This document shows, piece by piece, positions 6,279-52,008 of a DNA stretch of 64,000 bases. Both the position numbers and the translations under genes were made by a program. How positions within the stretch are numbered: the first letter of the stretch is position 1; every line of letters starts with the position of its first letter. Under the pieces are notes generated by a model. That model searched no databases. It had not been told where the DNA came from and was given only the letters and a program-made list of their open reading frames with translations. Origin of the DNA: a bacterium BMS3Bbin13 (GTDB lineage Bacteria > Pseudomonadota > Gammaproteobacteria > 21-64-14); NCBI GenBank assembly GCA_002897735.1, contig BDTW01000008.1:1-64000 (forward strand), read 5' to 3'.

Positions 6279-7793
6279 TCAAAGCTTCGAAATCATGATG
6301 TGGCTAAGCAGATTCTGGACCGACATATGCGTCACGTCGATCAGCGGCGCCGGCCAAACTCCGAGAGCGAGCACCGCGACCGCCAGCAGGCCCAGCACCA
6401 GGAACTCCCGGCCGTCCAGATCCTGGAGTGCGTCGACGCGCTCGTTGGCCACGGCGCCGAAGATCACCCGCTTGACCATCCAAAGGGTATAGGCGGCACC
6501 CGTCACCAATGCGGTCGCCAGCAGCACCGCGTACCAGATGTCGGCCCTGACACTCGCCAGGATGATCATGAACTCGCCCACGAAGCCCGACGTCCCCGGA
6601 AGGCCGGAGTTGGCCATGGCGAAGAAGACGGCCAGAGCGGCGAACACCGGCATCCTGTTGACCACCCCGCCGTAGTCGGCGATCGCTCGACTGTGCATCC
6701 GCTCGTACAACACCCCCACACTCAGGAACAGCGCCCCCGAGATGAACCCATGGGAGACCATCTGCACGATCCCGCCTTCGACCGCCAAGACCGCCCCGTT
6801 GAGAGACTTGGTGCTCGCATAGATCGCGAACGGGATGAAGAAGGCGAGCGTCACAAAGCCCATATGGGCGATCGACGAGTACGCAATGAGCTTCTTCATG
6901 TCCTTCTGCACCATGGCGACGAGGCTGATGTACACCACCGCCACCAGCGACAGTGCGATCATCAACCACGCCAGCCGATGGCTGGCGTCCGGCGTGATCG
7001 GAAGGCTGAAACGCAGGAAGCCGTAGGCGCCGATCTTCAGCATGATCGCCGCCAGGATGACCGACCCACCCGTCGGCGCTTCCACGTGTGCGTCCGGCAA
7101 CCAGGTATGGACCGGCCACATCGGCACCTTCACTGCGAACGCCAGCAGGAAGGCGATGAAGATCAACAATTGCTCGTTCATCGTGAGCTTGAGCGTCTGG
7201 AAGTCGAGGATCGAGAAACTGCCGCTCCGAAAGTGCAGGTAGATCAGCGCGACGAGCATGAGCACCGATCCGAGGAAGGTGTACAAAAAGAACTTGATGG
7301 TCGCATAGACACGCCGCGGCCCGCCCCAGATCCCGATGATCAGGAACATCGGGATGAGCATGCTCTCCCAGAACACATAGAACAGGATCGCATCCAGGGC
7401 CGAGAACACCCCGATTATCACCCCCTCCATGATCAGGAACGCCGCCATATACTGCGCGACCCGCTTCTGGATCGAAACCCACCCGACGATCACGACCAGC
7501 ACAGTCATGAAACTGGTCAGCAGGATCAACGGCATCGAAATGCCGTCCACGCCGAGCGAGTAGTAGATGTTGAAGGCCGGGATCCACGGCAAGTGCTCCC
7601 GGAACTGCATCTGCGCCGTAGTGACATCGAACCCGATATACAGCGGGAGCGTCAGCAGGAATGTGACAAGCGCGAAGAGCACGGCGATCCGCCGCGCGCC
7701 GTCCGGCGCCTTGTCCCCGGAGAGCAGCACCAGCACGCCGCCGACGATGGGCGTCCAGATCGCCAGACTCAGCCAGGGGATATGATAAAACAC
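6279..7793 (-). CDS. nuoM: NADH-quinone oxidoreductase subunit M
   Basis: A 504-aa antiporter-like proton-pumping subunit of complex I. Visible family motifs are [29 protein letters not shown] with the conserved Lys and Asp, and [17 protein letters not shown]. About 14 membrane helices. It lies between nuoL (18-bp gap) and nuoN. Length is standard for the family. Confidence 0.97.
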
Positions 7794-12419: not shown

Positions 12420-14825
12420 TCATGACGCCACCCGCAACGTAACGGGCCCGATGGACGGCCCCAGCCCCGCGCTCCCCGGCAGCGCCGCGGAGATCCACGC
12501 GCATCCGTCCGGGACCCGATCGTCCACGACCAGGGGCAACACGGCGCGCGCATCCCCCTGCATCACCTCGACCCGGGCCGCCTCCGCCAGACCCAGGCGC
12601 TGCGCCAGCGCCGCCCGGATACGAACCGTCGCGTCACGCCCATGTTCGGTCTGCTGCAACGCCGTGGCGCGCCGCACCAGCGCATCGGTACCGTAGATCG
12701 GGACATCCCCGATTCGAACAAGACCCGCGCCGGCATCCGGCAACTCGACCGTATCCGGCCATGCGCTCCGGTTGTCCGGGGCCAATGTGCCGGCCTTCCC
12801 ATGCAGCTCGTCGCGCACCTGCTCCGCACTTGTATACTCGAAACCCGCGAGCCCGAGGAGATTACCCAACACGCGCAGGACTTTCCAACCCGGGCGCGCC
12901 GCGCCGTACGGCGCGCAGGCCCCGCGGAAACCCTGCCAGCGGCCCTCGGCGTTGACGAAGGTCCCCGAGGTCTCGGCGAACGCGGCGATCGGCAGCAACA
13001 CATCGGCGTAGTCGCGTGCCGCATCGCCGGCGTAGGGACTCATCACCACCGTGAAACCGGCCGCCCCGGCCGCCCGGCGCGCCTTGGCCGGGTCCCAGCA
13101 GTCGAACTCCGGCTCCACGCCGAACAGGATCAGGGCGTCGGGCGGAGACTCCAGCATGGCCGCCGCATCCAGCCCTCCGGCACCCGGCGCCACCGCGACC
13201 GCCCCCGCATCGCGATGCGGAACCGCCCCCGCGATCCACGCGCCGGCGCTGTTGGCCGCTTCGGGCAGGTAGCCCAACGTCGCCCCGCTCGCCTCTGCAA
13301 TCCAACCGGCGAGCGCCTGCAACACGGAGAACCCGGGATGCGCCGTCGCCAGATTCCCGAGCAATACGGTGCTGCGCACGCCGTCGCGCAGGGCCTGTGC
13401 GATCTCGCGTTCGGCCTGGTCGGGGTTGACGTTCTTGAAGAACTCCCGAACCTGCGGCACCTCGCCGTCACCACCGGCGCCGAGCGCCTTGGCGATCCCC
13501 GCGAGCGATCGCACCATGCCGGCGGGACCGGCGACGATTTTATGCGCGACCGGGAAATGGAAGTCGAAATCGACGGGATTGACGAATGCGATCGCCGCGC
13601 CCCGTAGCGCCGCCTTGCGCAGCCGGTGCGCGGCGATCGGCTGCTCGTGGCGCACATTCGAGCCGACGATGAGCGCCGCGTCGAGATTCTCCAGGTCTTC
13701 GATCGACTGGCCGAGCCACGGAAACGGCGGGGCCCGATCCTGATCGCGGAAGTCCGCCTGACGCAAGCGATGGTCGATGTTGGCGCCGCCCAGGCCGCGC
13801 ACCAGCCGATTCGCCAGATAGAGTTCCTCGAGGGTCGCAGTGGGCGAAATCAGGGTCCCGATCCCGGCCGGCCCGCGCTCATCGAGCGCACGGTGCAAGC
13901 CGTCGACGACGAATTCCAGTGCGACGTCCCATTCCACTTCTTCCCAGTGGTCGCCACGCCGGATCATCGGGGACTTGAGCCGGTCGGCGGCATAGAGTCC
14001 CTGATAGGCGAACCGATCCCGGTCGGAGAGCCATACCTCGTTGATCGACTCGTTCTCGCGCGGAACGACGCGCATCACGCGCCCACGCCGCGTATGCAGG
14101 GCGAGGTTCGAGCCCATGGAATCGTGCGGAGCGATCGCCGGGAACTCCCGCAGTTCCCAGGCGCGCGCGGTGAACTGGAACGGCTTGGAGGTCAGGGCCC
14201 CGACCGGGCAGACGTCGATCACGTTGCCGGACATCTCCGAGCGCAGGCTGCGCTCCACATAGGTGTCGATCCGCATATGCTCGCCGCGCCCGATCCCACC
14301 GAGTTCCTTCCGTCCGGCGATCACCTCGAGGAAACGAATGCAGCGGGTACAATGGATGCAGCGCGTCATATCCGTGGCGATGAGCGGACCGAGGTCGTGA
14401 TCGACCACCACGCGCTTCTTCTCCGCGAACCGCGATACGCTCGAACCAAAACCGAGCGACAGGTCCTGCAGCTCGCACTCCCCTCCCTGGTCGCAGATCG
14501 GGCAATCCAGGGGATGGTTGATCAGCAGGAACTCCATCACCGCCTTCTGCGCCGCGATGGCGCGCACCGAGCGGGTGAAGACCTTCATACCGTCCGTGAC
14601 CGGCGTAGCGCAGGCCGGCAGCGGCTTGGGCGCCCGCTCCACCTCCACCAGACACATCCGGCAGCTGGCGGCGATCGGCAGTTTCGTGTGGTAGCAGAAC
14701 CGCGGAATGGTCACGCCGGCGGCATCCGCGACCTGGATGATCATCTCGCCCTTGCGGGCGCGGTAGGCGGTGCCGTCGATCTCGACGGTGATCAGATCCT
14801 CCGGAACGTCGGGCTTCGCGCTCAC
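12420..14825 (-). CDS. nuoG: NADH-quinone oxidoreductase subunit G
   Basis: An 801-aa peripheral-arm subunit of complex I. The N-terminal [2Fe-2S] domain shows [15 protein letters not shown] and a fourth Cys in PLPAC. It is followed by the His/Cys cluster motif [14 protein letters not shown] and a CIHCTRC [4Fe-4S] motif, then a molybdopterin-oxidoreductase-like domain (about 220-690) that is structural in complex I. It overlaps the stop of nuoF by 4 nt, which implies translational coupling. Confidence 0.97.
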
Positions 14826-48225: not shown

Positions 48226-48654
48226 TTAAAGGCCTTTCTTGTGGCCTTTGTCCTTGCGCGAGGACTTCTTTCTCGTTGGTGTTGCCTTCGACGCAGTTGC
48301 CCCCACGTCATCTGGCAAAACGGACTGTGCGAACAAATGAACTTTTCCTTCGACAGCCAACCGCGCTAACAGATAGACTGTGCTCTCTTCCGACAACTCC
48401 AGTCGCCTGGCCAGATCAGCCGCATCATGCGAGTTACCGTCATACAATAAATCCGCTACCGCCTCTTCCTTTCCGGCAAGCCAGTCCCCGAACAGGCCCT
48501 GCAACTCAGGGGTCGCGAAGGCAGCCAGCGCCGTGGTCTTCTGCAGGGCGGCCAGCATCTCCTTGCACATCTGCATGGGACCGCCTTCACCACCGCCCAT
48601 CATCTTCTTCATCATCTCCATCCCCATCTGGGGGTTCATGCCTGGTTTGTCCAT
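48226..48654 (-). CDS. Met-rich N-terminus / helix-turn-helix-like / Lys-rich tail protein, function unknown
   Basis: A 142-aa protein not recognised as a named family. Residues 1-33 contain 11 methionines (MNPQMGMEMMKKMMGG, then MQMCKEM). The middle (about 45-115) is helical with a segment resembling a winged-helix/HTH (DAADLARRLELSEESTVYLL). The last 25 residues are Lys/Arg-rich. Third gene of an operon with a second Met-rich protein and a methyltransferase. Clustered Met can bind Cu(I)/Ag(I) or act as an oxidant sink; neither is shown here. Confidence 0.72.
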   Translation of the reverse strand: MDKPGMNPQMGMEMMKKMMGGGEGGPMQMCKEMLAALQKTTALAAFATPELQGLFGDWLAGKEEAVADLLYDGNSHDAADLARRLELSEESTVYLLARLAVEGKVHLFAQSVLPDDVGATASKATPTRKKSSRKDKGHKKGL

Positions 48655-48674
48655 GTGATTGTCCTCTTGTCGCT

Positions 48675-48938
48675 TCAGTTGCTTGCCTGGGCTTTCAGCC
48701 CATCCATCATGCGCTCCAGCATGGCTTGGGCAAGATCCTTCCTATCGGCCGGTTCCAGCGCGGAAAACATCATGTTCATGCAGCGTGGCATCATGTTCTG
48801 CATGAATTCCATGCGGTCTTCAGGGCGCATTTCCTTGAACACGCTGTCCATCATGGACTCCATCATGCGAGGCATGTCCTCCGGCCTCATCATCCCTGAC
48901 ATCATCTTTTCCATAATCTTCTGCATTGTTTCTTTCAT
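48675..48938 (-). CDS. Met-rich small protein, function unknown
   Basis: An 87-aa, apparently soluble, mostly helical protein with 23 methionines (about 26%), many as MM pairs spaced 3-4 residues apart (KIMEKMMSGMMRPEDM, PRMMESMMDS), and a single Cys (PRCMN). There is no signal peptide. GAGGTG lies upstream of the start. It is 5 bp downstream of the methyltransferase gene and 20 bp upstream of the next Met-rich gene, so the three form an operon. Met spacing on helices suggests a hydrophobic or metal-binding face. Confidence 0.75.
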   Translation of the reverse strand: MKETMQKIMEKMMSGMMRPEDMPRMMESMMDSVFKEMRPEDRMEFMQNMMPRCMNMMFSALEPADRKDLAQAMLERMMDGLKAQASN

Positions 48939-48943
48939 GCTTG

Positions 48944-49552
48944 TTACACCTCATTTGTCTGTTTATTGAAGACCGCGCCATAGTGGTAGGGGCCGACCTC
49001 GACCACCTTCTCCAATGAAAAGCCGGCTGGCTCGGCCACCTGCTGCATGTCTTCTGGCTCCATGCGCAATTCCGTGTCAGGGCCACGTGGCTGCCCCAGC
49101 ACAGTGGTTTCTTCACGGGGGAGCCGGTGCCAGTTGACCACGACGAAACGGCCACCGGGCTTGAGCGCCTGATACACCGACCGGGCAAGCCCGGTCTTGT
49201 CTGGCACGCCATGGAAGGTGTTGGCGATGAACACCAGATCCACGAGCCCGGAGATCTGTTTGGGCAATTCCCGGGCGTCGCTCAGGACGGCATGGAAATT
49301 GGGGTGTCCGTCGCAGGCCTTTTTCGCCCGTTCGAGCAGCGCCTCGTCCAGGTCCACCGCCCATATCTTGCCGGGATGGACCAGCTCACACATGGGCCGG
49401 GTGAAGTGGCCGTCGCCACAGCACAGATCGACAACGGTCATCCCGGGTTGCATGCCGACGGTCCGCAGCACGGCTTCCGGGTCGGGCCACAGGGCTTCCC
49501 ACCAATCCTTGTCCGGCATCAGGGTCGAGGGAAATCGGGTATCTTGATTCAT
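48944..49552 (-). CDS. class I SAM-dependent methyltransferase
   Basis: A 202-aa methyltransferase. Motif I is VVDLCCGDGHFTRP (about 40-53) with an unusual tandem Cys; then IWAVDLDEALLE (motif II), LVDLVFIANTFHGVPDK (motif IV region) and ALKPGGRFVVVNWH (motif VI). Closest in style to small-molecule methyltransferases of the UbiE/thiopurine type; the substrate is unknown. First gene of the Met-rich operon, reading away from a promoter region with three CATATG-type boxes shared with the divergent GST-like gene. Confidence 0.85.
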   Translation of the reverse strand: MNQDTRFPSTLMPDKDWWEALWPDPEAVLRTVGMQPGMTVVDLCCGDGHFTRPMCELVHPGKIWAVDLDEALLERAKKACDGHPNFHAVLSDARELPKQISGLVDLVFIANTFHGVPDKTGLARSVYQALKPGGRFVVVNWHRLPREETTVLGQPRGPDTELRMEPEDMQQVAEPAGFSLEKVVEVGPYHYGAVFNKQTNEV

Positions 49553-49589
49553 GGGGGCTCCGTTTGACTTTCAGGCGGGACTCGCGGAA

Positions 49590-49627
49590 TATATGCGCAT
49601 CGACTCATATGCGAGCGTACACATATG
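49590..49627. promoter_or_regulatory. triple CATATG operator array A (methyltransferase / GST)
   Basis: Boxes TATATG (49590-49595), CATATG (49606-49611) and CATATG (49622-49627) are spaced exactly 16 bp apart in the 118-bp gap between divergent genes. A -35-like TTGACT (49564-49569) faces the GST gene, and TATATT at 49588-49593 (minus strand) could be the -10 of the methyltransferase operon. The same array, same period, precedes the ArsR-family gene (50667-50704), which is therefore the likely binder. Confidence 0.7.
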
Positions 49628-49670
49628 AACGACACCGGGTCAACCGGTTTGTTCCCGAGGGAAACCAGCC

Positions 49671-50330
49671 ATGCCCCAGATCCAGTTCTTCTACAATGAC
49701 GTCTGCCCCTTCGCCTACCGCGTACGCCTGGCCTTGGCGGAAAAGGGGATCGCGCACGAGGCCCGGGTGATCGACCTGCAGAACATCCCGGACTGGTATG
49801 CCGAGATCTCCCCCACGGGCAAGGTCCCCCTGCTCAAGGTGGACGACGCCGTGGTCTGGGAGAGCACCGTCATCAACGAGTTCCTCGAGGATCTGTTTCC
49901 GGAACCGCCGCTGCTGCCCCGCGAGCCGGTCGCCCGGGCGCACGCCCGCATCTGGATCGAATACTGCAACGGCACCTTCCAGCCCAACTGCTGCGGACTG
50001 GTGTTCGAACTGGACGAGAGCCGACACGCGGGCATCCGTGAGGCGCTCCTCGACAGCCTGCAGACCATTGAGGAGGCGCTGGCCGCGACCGCCGGCCCCT
50101 ACTGGCTGGGCGAGAAAGTCGGCCTGGTGGACCTCACCTACTATCCTTTCTTCGAGCACATGCCGACATTGAGCGAATACCGGGGATTCGAACTGCCCGA
50201 CAACCTGCCCAACGTGCACCGCTGGCTTTCCGCGATGCGGGAGCGTCCGTCGGTCCAGGTCAACCGCCAGCCGGCCGAGTTCTACATCGAGGCATACCGG
50301 CCTTATGTCGAAGGGCGTTACGGGAAATAG
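49671..50330 (+). CDS. glutathione S-transferase-like protein
   Basis: A 219-aa protein with an N-terminal thioredoxin-fold domain (FFYNDVCPFAYRVRLALAEKGI; the Cys at about 12 sits at the catalytic N-terminal helix as in omega-class/GrxC-like GSTs), the cis-Pro segment GKVPLLKVDD and the glutathione gamma-Glu binding ESTVINEFLED, then a helical C-terminal domain with a vicinal NCCGL Cys pair (about residue 107). It probably binds glutathione to reduce or conjugate thiol/electrophile substrates. It is divergent from the methyltransferase operon across operator array A. Confidence 0.85.
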   Translation: MPQIQFFYNDVCPFAYRVRLALAEKGIAHEARVIDLQNIPDWYAEISPTGKVPLLKVDDAVVWESTVINEFLEDLFPEPPLLPREPVARAHARIWIEYCNGTFQPNCCGLVFELDESRHAGIREALLDSLQTIEEALAATAGPYWLGEKVGLVDLTYYPFFEHMPTLSEYRGFELPDNLPNVHRWLSAMRERPSVQVNRQPAEFYIEAYRPYVEGRYGK

Positions 50331-50347
50331 GCCGGGTGTACCGAAAT

Positions 50348-50375
50348 GGGTGCCTGGCCCGGGGGTCAGGCACCC
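50348..50375. terminator. hairpin between convergent GST and Met-rich genes
   Basis: A 9-bp stem GGGTGCCTG (50348-50356) / CAGGCACCC (50367-50375), extendable by inner GC pairing, occupies most of the 51-bp gap between the GST stop and the stop of the small Met-rich gene. There is no T-tract; it may end transcription from both sides. Confidence 0.45.
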
Positions 50376-50381
50376 GTCGGC

Positions 50382-50564
50382 TCAGGATTCGTGGGACGAA
50401 TCCTCCGCCTTTGCCGCCACGGCCCGGTCGGGCGTCGTTTCCGACGATTCCCCGGTCTTGGAACCGTTCATTATCGCCATGCATCCCTGCATCACTCCCA
50501 TGCCTTTTTCCATCATGCCGGCGGGATTCATGTTACTCATCATGTTGCTGCACTTCTTCATCAT
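50382..50564 (-). CDS. 60-aa Met-rich peptide, function unknown
   Basis: Residues 1-32 hold 11 Met and two Cys (MMKKCSNMMSNMNPAGMMEK, then GMGVMQGCMAIM); the rest is a polar Ser/Glu/Ala tail. The Met-rich head resembles the N-terminus of the 142-aa protein encoded at 48226-48654 (both have MNPxxMM-type spacing). AGAGGA lies 7 nt upstream of the ATG at 50564. It is divergent from the ArsR-family gene across operator array B. Too short for most gene finders to call with confidence, but the ribosome binding site and the homology-like composition support it. Confidence 0.65.
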   Translation of the reverse strand: MMKKCSNMMSNMNPAGMMEKGMGVMQGCMAIMNGSKTGESSETTPDRAVAAKAEDSSHES

Positions 50565-50666
50565 GGCGCGTTCCTCTAATGATCGGGTTTCGCGGGATTG
50601 CTCCGGGCAACGGCGCTTTGACAACCTGCCCGGGATTGCGGAACATGCTGAGAGTGAGCCTATACA

Positions 50667-50704
50667 CATATGAGCGTGCCCGCATATGAGTAGTAACGCA
50701 TATG
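50667..50704. promoter_or_regulatory. triple CATATG operator array B (Met-rich peptide / ArsR)
   Basis: Three perfect CATATG boxes at 50667-50672, 50683-50688 and 50699-50704 are spaced exactly 16 bp apart. The second contains the ATG start codon of the ArsR-family gene and the third lies inside its coding sequence, so a bound repressor would also block its own translation start region. A perfect TTGACA is at 50618-50623 on the plus strand, with a poor -10 (GAACAT) 17 bp on. Array A between the methyltransferase and GST genes has the same form. Confidence 0.75.
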
Positions 50705-51024
50705 ATTGCGGGTCTGTCAAGACCCTGAGTGGATTGTTTAAGCTGCTGGCCGAGCCCAACCGCCTGCGCATCCTGTGCAGCCTGGGCCTGGAATGCCGAC
50801 CGGTCTCGGACATCGTCGAGGCCACGGGTCTGAGTCAGACCAACGTCTCCTTCCACTTGCGGGCCCTGCGCGAGGCGGGCCTGGTGCGGCCGGAGCGGCG
50901 CGGACCCTACATCTATTACTGCCTCCCGGATCCCGCCCTGCTCAAGCTGCTGGACGACTTTCGCCACTGGCACGACCAGCGAACAGCCAACGGGGCATCC
51001 CCACCTTCCACAGGGCGACGATAA
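50686..51024 (+). CDS. ArsR/SmtB-family winged-helix transcription regulator
   Basis: A 112-aa regulator with the ArsR fold: LFKLLAEPNRLRILCSLGLE, recognition helix GLSQTNVSFHLRALREAGLV (both at family positions), and the wing RPERRGPYIYYCLPDP. Cysteines are at 8, 31, 37 and 79. The canonical ArsR metalloid site (CVC in helix 3) is absent; only C37 lies near it, so the inducer cannot be read off. It probably represses both divergent units through the CATATG arrays. Confidence 0.9.
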   Translation: MSSNAYDCGSVKTLSGLFKLLAEPNRLRILCSLGLECRPVSDIVEATGLSQTNVSFHLRALREAGLVRPERRGPYIYYCLPDPALLKLLDDFRHWHDQRTANGASPPSTGRR

Positions 51025-51027
51025 TCC

Positions 51028-51809
51028 AAAAAGGGGTCAGTACCCTTTCTCTTCCTTCCGCGGCCTTCCTCGTCTGGCCTGCCCCACCTTACGCCCGATG
51101 GTCCGTTCTATCTCGCCCCGAAACCGATCATTGCCCAGCGGCGTCCCGCTCTGAACCGCGGCCTGAATGTTGTGTACCTGATCCGGCTCGAGCGCATTAC
51201 GAAACAGTTCCCGATAAGCAAATTGCCGGGAACCGGGATCCCGCCCGAGCTCGCGGTACAGGGCGTGGCCCGTCACCACTAAGTCGCGATGCCCCGTTGC
51301 GTTGGTGCGGTAACTGGACCAACGATAGTCGATCGGCTTACCGACCATCCCGGCACGCACGGGATTGAGCTCGATGTATCGCATGCAGGCGAGCAAATAG
51401 TCGTCCGACGCAATGATAGAGCCTTTATGCCTCCCCTCCCACAATGTGCCTGTCTTGCCGTACGTATGATTGATATAGGGCACGTAATGGCGTCCGACAT
51501 ACTGAATGGTCCAGCTGATGGCCCCGGGAACGTCCGGCGTGACGAGAAGATGGACGTGATTGGTCATCAGACAATAAGCATGGACCTTGCAACCATGTCT
51601 ATTGGCACCCTCGGCCAAGCGCTTCAGGTAAACTCCGTAATCTCCAGCGTCAAAAAACACCGCTTGCCGGCAGTTCCCGCGCTGGATTACATGCGCAGCA
51701 ATGCCCGGGAAATAGAATCGGGGCTTGCGAGGCATACGAACATCCTTGTTCAATCCGCATCTGCTGGAAGCTTAACAGGGTGATACGCTAAAGGGTACTG
51801 ACCCCTTTT
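51028..51809. mobile_element. RAYT/IS200-like element bounded by 20-bp inverted repeats
   Basis: The sequence at 51029-51048 (AAAAGGGGTCAGTACCCTTT) is the exact reverse complement of 51790-51809. The two copies enclose one transposase gene with little else (about 780 bp in all). Each copy also contains an internal palindrome-like GGGTCAGTACCC core. IS200/REP-type transposases act on hairpin ends and not classical inverted repeats, so these may be REP-type recognition sequences flanking a domesticated gene. Confidence 0.75.
51037..51753 (-). CDS. REP-associated tyrosine transposase (RAYT, Y1-Tnp family)
   Basis: A 238-aa HUH-type transposase: FPGIAAHVIQRGNCRQAVFF at the N-terminus, the HUH motif TNHVHLLVTP, the catalytic Tyr region QYVGRHYVPYIN, LWEGRHKGSII and RYIELNPVRAGMV, all RAYT features. 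C-terminal basic tail GRPRKEEKGY. The last two codons and the stop TGA fall inside the left inverted repeat (51037-51045). The ATG at 51735 (MPRKPRFYF) is the more family-like start; 51753 is the longer alternative. Confidence 0.9.
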   Translation of the reverse strand: MNKDVRMPRKPRFYFPGIAAHVIQRGNCRQAVFFDAGDYGVYLKRLAEGANRHGCKVHAYCLMTNHVHLLVTPDVPGAISWTIQYVGRHYVPYINHTYGKTGTLWEGRHKGSIIASDDYLLACMRYIELNPVRAGMVGKPIDYRWSSYRTNATGHRDLVVTGHALYRELGRDPGSRQFAYRELFRNALEPDQVHNIQAAVQSGTPLGNDRFRGEIERTIGRKVGQARRGRPRKEEKGY

Positions 51810-52008
51810 CCCCCTTCTCGACCGCTGCAATCCACACTCAACGACCGGTGGACCCGACGTGTCATCGAGGATAGCGGCAACCCGAAAAACGCGGGTATTG
51901 GACAACGAAAGGCGAAAAACGCAGAATAGCGGAGATTACAGGGTCCGGTACCCGGCGGGCATACGTGCGGATGCCGGGTTTATGTGTCCAAGCAAAGTGG
52001 AGTACCGA

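Follow-up and report, generated by a model that had tools for sequence, protein, structure and literature searches.

Two triple CATATG arrays as predicted pairs of overlapping operators for an ArsR-family regulator in the gammaproteobacterium BMS3Bbin13

Why would the two divergent promoter regions around a GST-like gene each carry three near-identical hexamers at an invariant spacing, one set of them running into the start of an ArsR-family gene? The locus lies in the window, the stretch of 64,000 nucleotides of contig BDTW01000008.1 (positions 1 to 64,000) that was analysed here. Array 1, between the methyltransferase and GST genes, consists of TATATG at 49590 and CATATG at 49606 and 49622; array 2, over the arsR start, has CATATG at 50667, 50683 and 50699, and the pitch is 16 bp in both. 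A sequence-only reading had given these positions, the 16-bp spacing and a single TATATG among the six boxes, all of which are exact in the sequence, as is its overlap of array 2 with the start codon: the ATG at 50686 is inside the box at 50683, and the box at 50699 is coding sequence of arsR (GCA TAT GAT). The comparisons set out below suggest that the arrays are probably pairs of overlapping repressor operators with a common middle box, serving the product of the adjacent arsR gene (Table 1).

Table 1. Genes, promoter-like hexamer and candidate operators around the two arrays (window coordinates).
Feature	Position	Strand	Remarks
Met2, Met-rich protein, TsoA-like C-terminal domain	48226..48654	-	NF045695 54.2 bits, cut-off 170
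Met1, small Met-rich protein	48675..48938	-	after methyltransferase in 7 related loci
Class I SAM-dependent methyltransferase	48944..49552	-	divergent from GST gene
TTGACT, -35-like hexamer	49564..49569	+	20 nt before box 1; inferred from conservation
Candidate operator O1a	49590..49611	.	TATATGCG-CATCGA-CTCATATG; array 1 boxes 1+2; one mismatch to CATATGMG-N6-CKCATATG
Candidate operator O1b	49606..49627	.	CATATGCG-AGCGTA-CACATATG; array 1 boxes 2+3; box 49606-49611 common with O1a
Cys-type GST, CPF active-site motif	49671..50330	+	nearest in PDB: pyrimidodiazepine synthase, DHAR (dehydroascorbate reductases), omega-class GSTs
Met3, small Met-rich ORF	50382..50564	-	divergent from arsR across array 2
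Candidate operator O2a	50667..50688	.	CATATGAG-CGTGCC-CGCATATG; array 2 boxes 1+2; perfect half-site model match
Candidate operator O2b	50683..50704	.	CATATGAG-TAGTAA-CGCATATG; array 2 boxes 2+3; box 50683-50688 common with O2a; overlaps arsR start codon
ArsR/SmtB-family regulator, 112 aa	50686..51024	+	NF033788 78.8 bits (cut-off 55), PF01022 53.5 (22)

The signal is the spacing of the boxes and not the frequency of CATATG, which on its own occurs in the window about as often as expected (8 times against 6.8). The pair YATATG-N10-YATATG, with up to one mismatch and on both strands, matches 10 times there, where dinucleotide shuffles predict 0.07. Its sole match outside the arrays (14258-14279) falls in an apparent coding region and was rejected as a further operator. 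The assembly measures 2.69 Mb in 62 contigs and is 97% complete; in all of it, the exact pair CATATG-N10-CATATG is confined to the two arrays, and by a simple composition model a triple YATATG array should occur about 6e-6 times. The spacer sequences are unlike one another, thus the arrays are not a simple tandem repeat. Pattern scans do also catch simple tandem repeats containing CATATG (L032, L038, L092), but with about 6e-6 arrays expected per genome, diverging spacers and a spacing kept in relatives whose spacers have changed, an origin by chance or from low-complexity sequence is hardly credible. A tandem-repeat artefact at the window locus was rejected on the same differing spacers and conserved spacing.

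The genes around the arrays likely form one regulon, made up of the methyltransferase, the Met-rich proteins, the Cys-type GST and ArsR. Homologues of Met2 adjoin ArsR in Desulfobulbia-class loci, and profile searches with Met3 gave no family match. The presumed regulon holds three small Met-rich, apparently cytosolic proteins (48226-48938 and 50382-50564), for which no described function was found. TTGACA stands at the same 20-nt distance before box 1 in the related loci L132, L150, L151 and L152, which brings TTGAC(A/T) 20 nt 5' of box 1 to five of five array-1 regions, the window included; at this fixed distance box 1 would overlap the -10 element of a rightward promoter. A generic sigma-70 scan called no promoter and did not score the TTGACT hexamer, and a generic terminator scan found nothing. 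Downstream of arsR, on the minus strand, lies a gene resembling REP-associated tyrosine transposases (51037-51753; 57.1 bits in NCBIfam, cut-off 80), with copies of AAAGGGTACTGACCCCTTTT in inverted orientation on either side of it, at 51028 and 51790 (region 51028-51810).

Is the spacing maintained in relatives? An exact-pattern search of 369 gammaproteobacterial genomes returned the genome of the window only, as the boxes of relatives hold at least one mismatch. The relatives were located by protein homology, through the methyltransferase or ArsR, and not by the box pattern. Methyltransferase homology yielded 13 further genomes among the 369 sampled Gammaproteobacteria, a congener (L132) included, and ArsR homology led to a plasmid gene of Ideonella dechloratans adjoining chlorate reductase (L163). 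Three boxes at 16 bp stand beside ArsR in L132 (CATATG/CATATG/CATATT), L150, L151 and L152 (both regions), L156, L158 (CACATG/CATATG/CACATG) and L163 (AATATG/TATATG/AATATG), and the array of L153 is weak. The spacers have diverged among these relatives while the 16-bp spacing was kept: when spacings from 8 to 26 are compared, 13 of the 15 good arrays fit 16 bp best, and the shuffle p does not exceed 0.002 for any of the 15. No array was seen at the four methyltransferase orthologues that have no ArsR neighbor (L154, L155, L157, L159; p 0.07-1). The sequence-only reading had looked to the spacing in related genomes for support, and at the ArsR-bearing orthologous loci found by homology it is conserved, which favors its proposal of a small ArsR regulon with putative operators in both divergent regions.

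The arrays are not equally intact everywhere. On the methyltransferase/GST side, the third box is degenerate in L150, L151 and L152, therefore two dimers may not always be needed, and in the congener 5 mismatches have eroded the array over arsR. Box 3 of array 2 also writes a conserved N-terminal peptide of the regulator, M-x-x-N-A-Y (50683-50710 in the window; also L151, L152, L156, L132 and L150). In L132 and L150, where the arsR-side array is eroded, this peptide is kept as TAY/TTY, as if it were an operator relic.

The Ideonella array is at 6800-7060 of NZ_CP088082.1, with the 16-bp pitch and TTGACA 19 nt before box 1. It is a candidate autoregulatory site of the ArsR encoded beside the chlorate reductase; in the chlorate reductase composite transposon of Ideonella dechloratans, the gene for that ArsR is the sole regulator gene reported (PMC7349173).

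Where does a dimer sit on such an array? The hexamer CATATG is itself perfectly palindromic, and the middle box is flanked symmetrically (CK-CATATG-MG), as expected if every hexamer were a dimer site with its dyad at the hexamer center and each array held three dimers, which the sequence-only reading had implied. The flanks of the end boxes bear on this. The register was fixed from the hexamers only and the flanks were inspected afterwards, in 15 arrays (two from the window, nine from gamma/beta relatives and four from Desulfobulbia-class relatives) that are not fully independent, L151 and L152 being near relatives. On the inner sides, MG follows box 1 in 13/15 and box 2 in 11/15, and CK precedes box 2 in 12/15 and box 3 in 8/15. 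On the outer sides, CK precedes box 1 in none of the 15 and MG follows box 3 in two. The inner flanks thus fit MG/CK in 44/60 cases against 2/30 for the outer flanks (Fisher p=8e-10, with arrays that are partly non-independent). Since the inner but not the outer flanks fit, the half-site would be CATATGMG, with the dyad in the spacer. The binding unit is best read as a 22-bp palindrome, CATATGMG-N6-CKCATATG, with dyads between the boxes and not on the hexamers. With up to two mismatches, this extended motif occurs assembly-wide at the arrays and at 14258 only.

The same unit can be written as a 12-2-12 repeat, nnCATATGMGNN-NN-NNCKCATATGnn, in the same frame as published ArsR/SmtB repeats such as AATACCTGAACA-GA-TGTTCAAGTATT (PMC8790569). 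In this family one homodimer binds per 12-2-12 repeat, and smt has two repeats (PMC6555750). The inverted repeat that marks ArsR/SmtB operators, TGNN-N6-NNCA next to the regulator gene, is present in both arrays and in the relatives. Dimer sites centered on the hexamers are unlikely, as the end boxes have no symmetric outer flank and the between-box reading reproduces the known TGAA-N6-TTCA geometry of ArsR/SmtB operators. With dyads between the boxes, three boxes make two overlapping operators with a common middle box, and each array is best read as two predicted operators for two dimers, their centers 16 bp apart. The idea of an array for several dimers is thereby retained, and the hexamer gives way as its unit: flank symmetry argues for two sites, not three.

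Classical 12-2-12 operators include smt S2/S1 and S4/S3, ziaA, czrA, cadC and Anabaena nmtA with AzuR, with a single repeat or two at each promoter (PMC8790569, PMC6555750). The arrays resemble them in having inverted TG-core half-sites at a distance of one helical turn, in lying close to the transcription start or across it, and in adjoining an ArsR-family gene. They differ in that the repeats overlap, with a common outer CATATG arm and a fixed 16-bp pitch, and in their core, TGMG-N6-CKCA instead of TGAA-N6-TTCA.

The genome of the window is no special case: the three-box architecture recurs in several phyla. In the genome collection, CATATG-N10-CATATG-N10-CATATG occurs at 118 loci at least; among the matches listed, 65 of 118 have an array-facing ArsR gene no more than 500 bp away, and at four the nearest ArsR gene is further off. 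The sequence-only reading had regarded three-box arrays as unusual for ArsR, a view contradicted by these 65 or more other loci with an ArsR gene facing the array. Among the matches listed, the array-bearing ArsR loci are mostly from Clostridia and lactobacilli, together with Campylobacterota and a few archaeal contigs, and four boxes (L019, L021) or five (L065) at the 16-bp pitch also stand upstream of ArsR genes. Their downstream genes, judged from sequences read by eye with no family search, look like heavy-metal-binding domain proteins, P-type ATPases and cation transporters, and also like CadD-like and ArsA-like proteins and small methyltransferases. The Firmicutes half-site is CATATGAA; at the left outer flank the mirror TT is found in 17% against 33-40% inside, an asymmetry clear on the left only, the right outer flank being confounded by the ribosome-binding site. 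A search of gaps from 4 to 24 in 148 genomes of the G372 class (Clostridia) gave five loci with 10/10 gaps, two of them already known, and other matches scattered over other gap pairs, several of which are tandem repeats.

Some Firmicutes arrays have no adjacent ArsR gene (L025, L034, L113, L116, L123; L020, L077) and precede genes for small methyltransferase-like proteins or ArsA-like ATPases, which suggests a wider regulon. Such arrays would also be expected if the boxes were read by another regulator, with the ArsR gene merely one of its targets, and the binding of ArsR to the arrays is a prediction from sequence. This alternative is very unlikely, as the array accompanies ArsR genes in lineages that are unrelated, and methyltransferase orthologues with no ArsR neighbor lack it. 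The ArsR encoded at 50686-51024 is the presumed array binder and autorepressor; among the three ArsR matches below 1e-12 in the genome, it alone adjoins such sites.

To what would this regulator respond? It has four cysteines (Cys8, Cys31, Cys37 and Cys78). A canonical CVC-type metal site had been described as lacking, and the alignment with SmtB confirms this, with Pro39 at the position of the alpha3 cysteine (LECRPVSDI). A CVC-type site would mark an As/Cd-sensing ArsR or CadC (alpha3/alpha3N site). The alpha5 zinc ligands of SmtB/CzrA are Asp104/His106 and His117/Glu120 (SmtB numbering). In the regulator, Asp81 aligns with Asp104, Ala83 replaces His106, and the alignment ends before the C-terminal ligand pair. 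With Pro39 at the alpha3 cysteine and Ala83 at His106, the known metal sites are absent. The sulfide or sulfite sensors BigR and SqrR use a cysteine pair in alpha2 and alpha5; the presumed alpha5 of the regulator has no cysteine, and Cys31 is missing in L153, L156 and L158. Scores on curated equivalog models fall short for TsoR (NF045707; 73.2 bits, cut-off 115) and BigR (38.2 against 155), and far short for CmtR (41.5 against 150). Throughout the gamma/beta branch Cys37 and Cys78 are kept without exception, and the Desulfobulbia-class relatives lack them. Because of this conservation and of the Cys-type GST among the targets, a thiol-reactive metal(loid), chalcogen or electrophile sensed via Cys37/Cys78 is tentatively suggested as the signal, on grounds of conservation and context. 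A SahR-like regulator of SAH, whose motif is a 20-bp palindrome (PMC4239095), was set aside, as no SAM-cycle gene was seen in the module.

In NCBIfam, TsoR and TsoA rank among the closest relatives of the window ArsR and of Met2, and both window proteins stay below the curated cut-offs. Tso is a three-selenoprotein operon described with no stated function (PMC13188914). A TsoA assignment takes an equivalog score of at least 170 and the selenocysteine motif LULAXC; Met2 reaches 54.2 bits of 170 and aligns with profile positions 66-143 only. In the Desulfobulbia class, similar but more degenerate arrays accompany sub-threshold TsoR-like ArsR genes beside TsoA-like genes (L194, L196, L197), and an MbdU-like protein is encoded nearby (332 bits in L196, cut-off 600). 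TsoR over its cut-off has a pair of boxes in only 2 of 30 fetched loci, and in L195 an array is upstream of such a TsoR. TsoR proper was rejected as the array owner on this low count, and because the L194/L166 array adjoins a second, sub-threshold ArsR. By curated thresholds, the window module is a relative of the Tso neighborhood and not a member of it.

How might two dimers share one array? One ArsR dimer would recognize the 22-bp palindrome, and the middle box of each array would be the common half-site of two palindromes. With centers 16 bp (about 1.5 turns) apart, the two dimers could lie on roughly opposite DNA faces and bind together. Between the methyltransferase and GST genes, array 1 would cover the presumed -10 region, and array 2 lies over the start of arsR. 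As long as no signal is present, the dimers would block all promoters on the methyltransferase, GST and arsR sides; the signal would release them, inducing the methyltransferase, the Met-rich proteins, GST and arsR.

CmtR of Mycobacterium tuberculosis reportedly binds cooperatively to multiple operator sites (an observation ascribed to Chauhan et al. in 2009, cited in PMC5116461). Like the window ArsR in its predicted role, it is an ArsR-family autorepressor with several operator sites, although the window protein scores low on the CmtR model. For CodY, a solved structure has two winged-helix dimers on overlapping palindromes with a common half-site (PMC10415144); its protein family, sequence and spacing are other than those of the window arrays, and the analogy is mechanistic only. 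CmtR cooperativity and the CodY half-site together make the two-dimer model plausible, not proven. No paper describing half-site sharing for ArsR was found in a literature search that was not exhaustive, which leaves the novelty provisional.

Alternatively, one palindrome could be occupied at a time, through exclusive binding or because the other is a relic, so that the array would raise local site density without cooperative binding of two dimers. The third boxes are indeed degenerate in several orthologues, and two dimers on a common box may clash at its AT-rich center. But the two window arrays, like those of several relatives, have each palindrome intact, arrays of four and five boxes exist, and the CodY structure offers a precedent by analogy; single occupancy is rather doubtful, though a serious contender. 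A more general rule is conceivable, and it is quite possible, if somewhat short of probable, that ArsR repressors in several phyla use a modular code. In such a code, n+1 CATATG boxes at a 16-bp pitch would make n overlapping palindromes, and dimers would be added one per box on alternating faces, forming a short cooperative array. The number of boxes would set the strength and steepness of repression, with the two three-box arrays of the window and the four to five boxes of Firmicutes as different settings.

The arrays are best read as a compact, widespread version of the known ArsR switch rather than a new type of switch. For a large set of ArsR proteins they yield an operator rule exact enough to search with, by which regulators can be linked to targets without experiments, and in Ideonella dechloratans they point to a site through which the ArsR gene next to chlorate reductase may regulate itself. 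They also group the methyltransferase, the Met-rich proteins and the Cys-type GST as parts of a single presumed stress module that would be inducible and is akin to the Tso neighborhood. Finally, they raise a structural question for the family: can two ArsR dimers use one half-site, and does the number of boxes tune the response?
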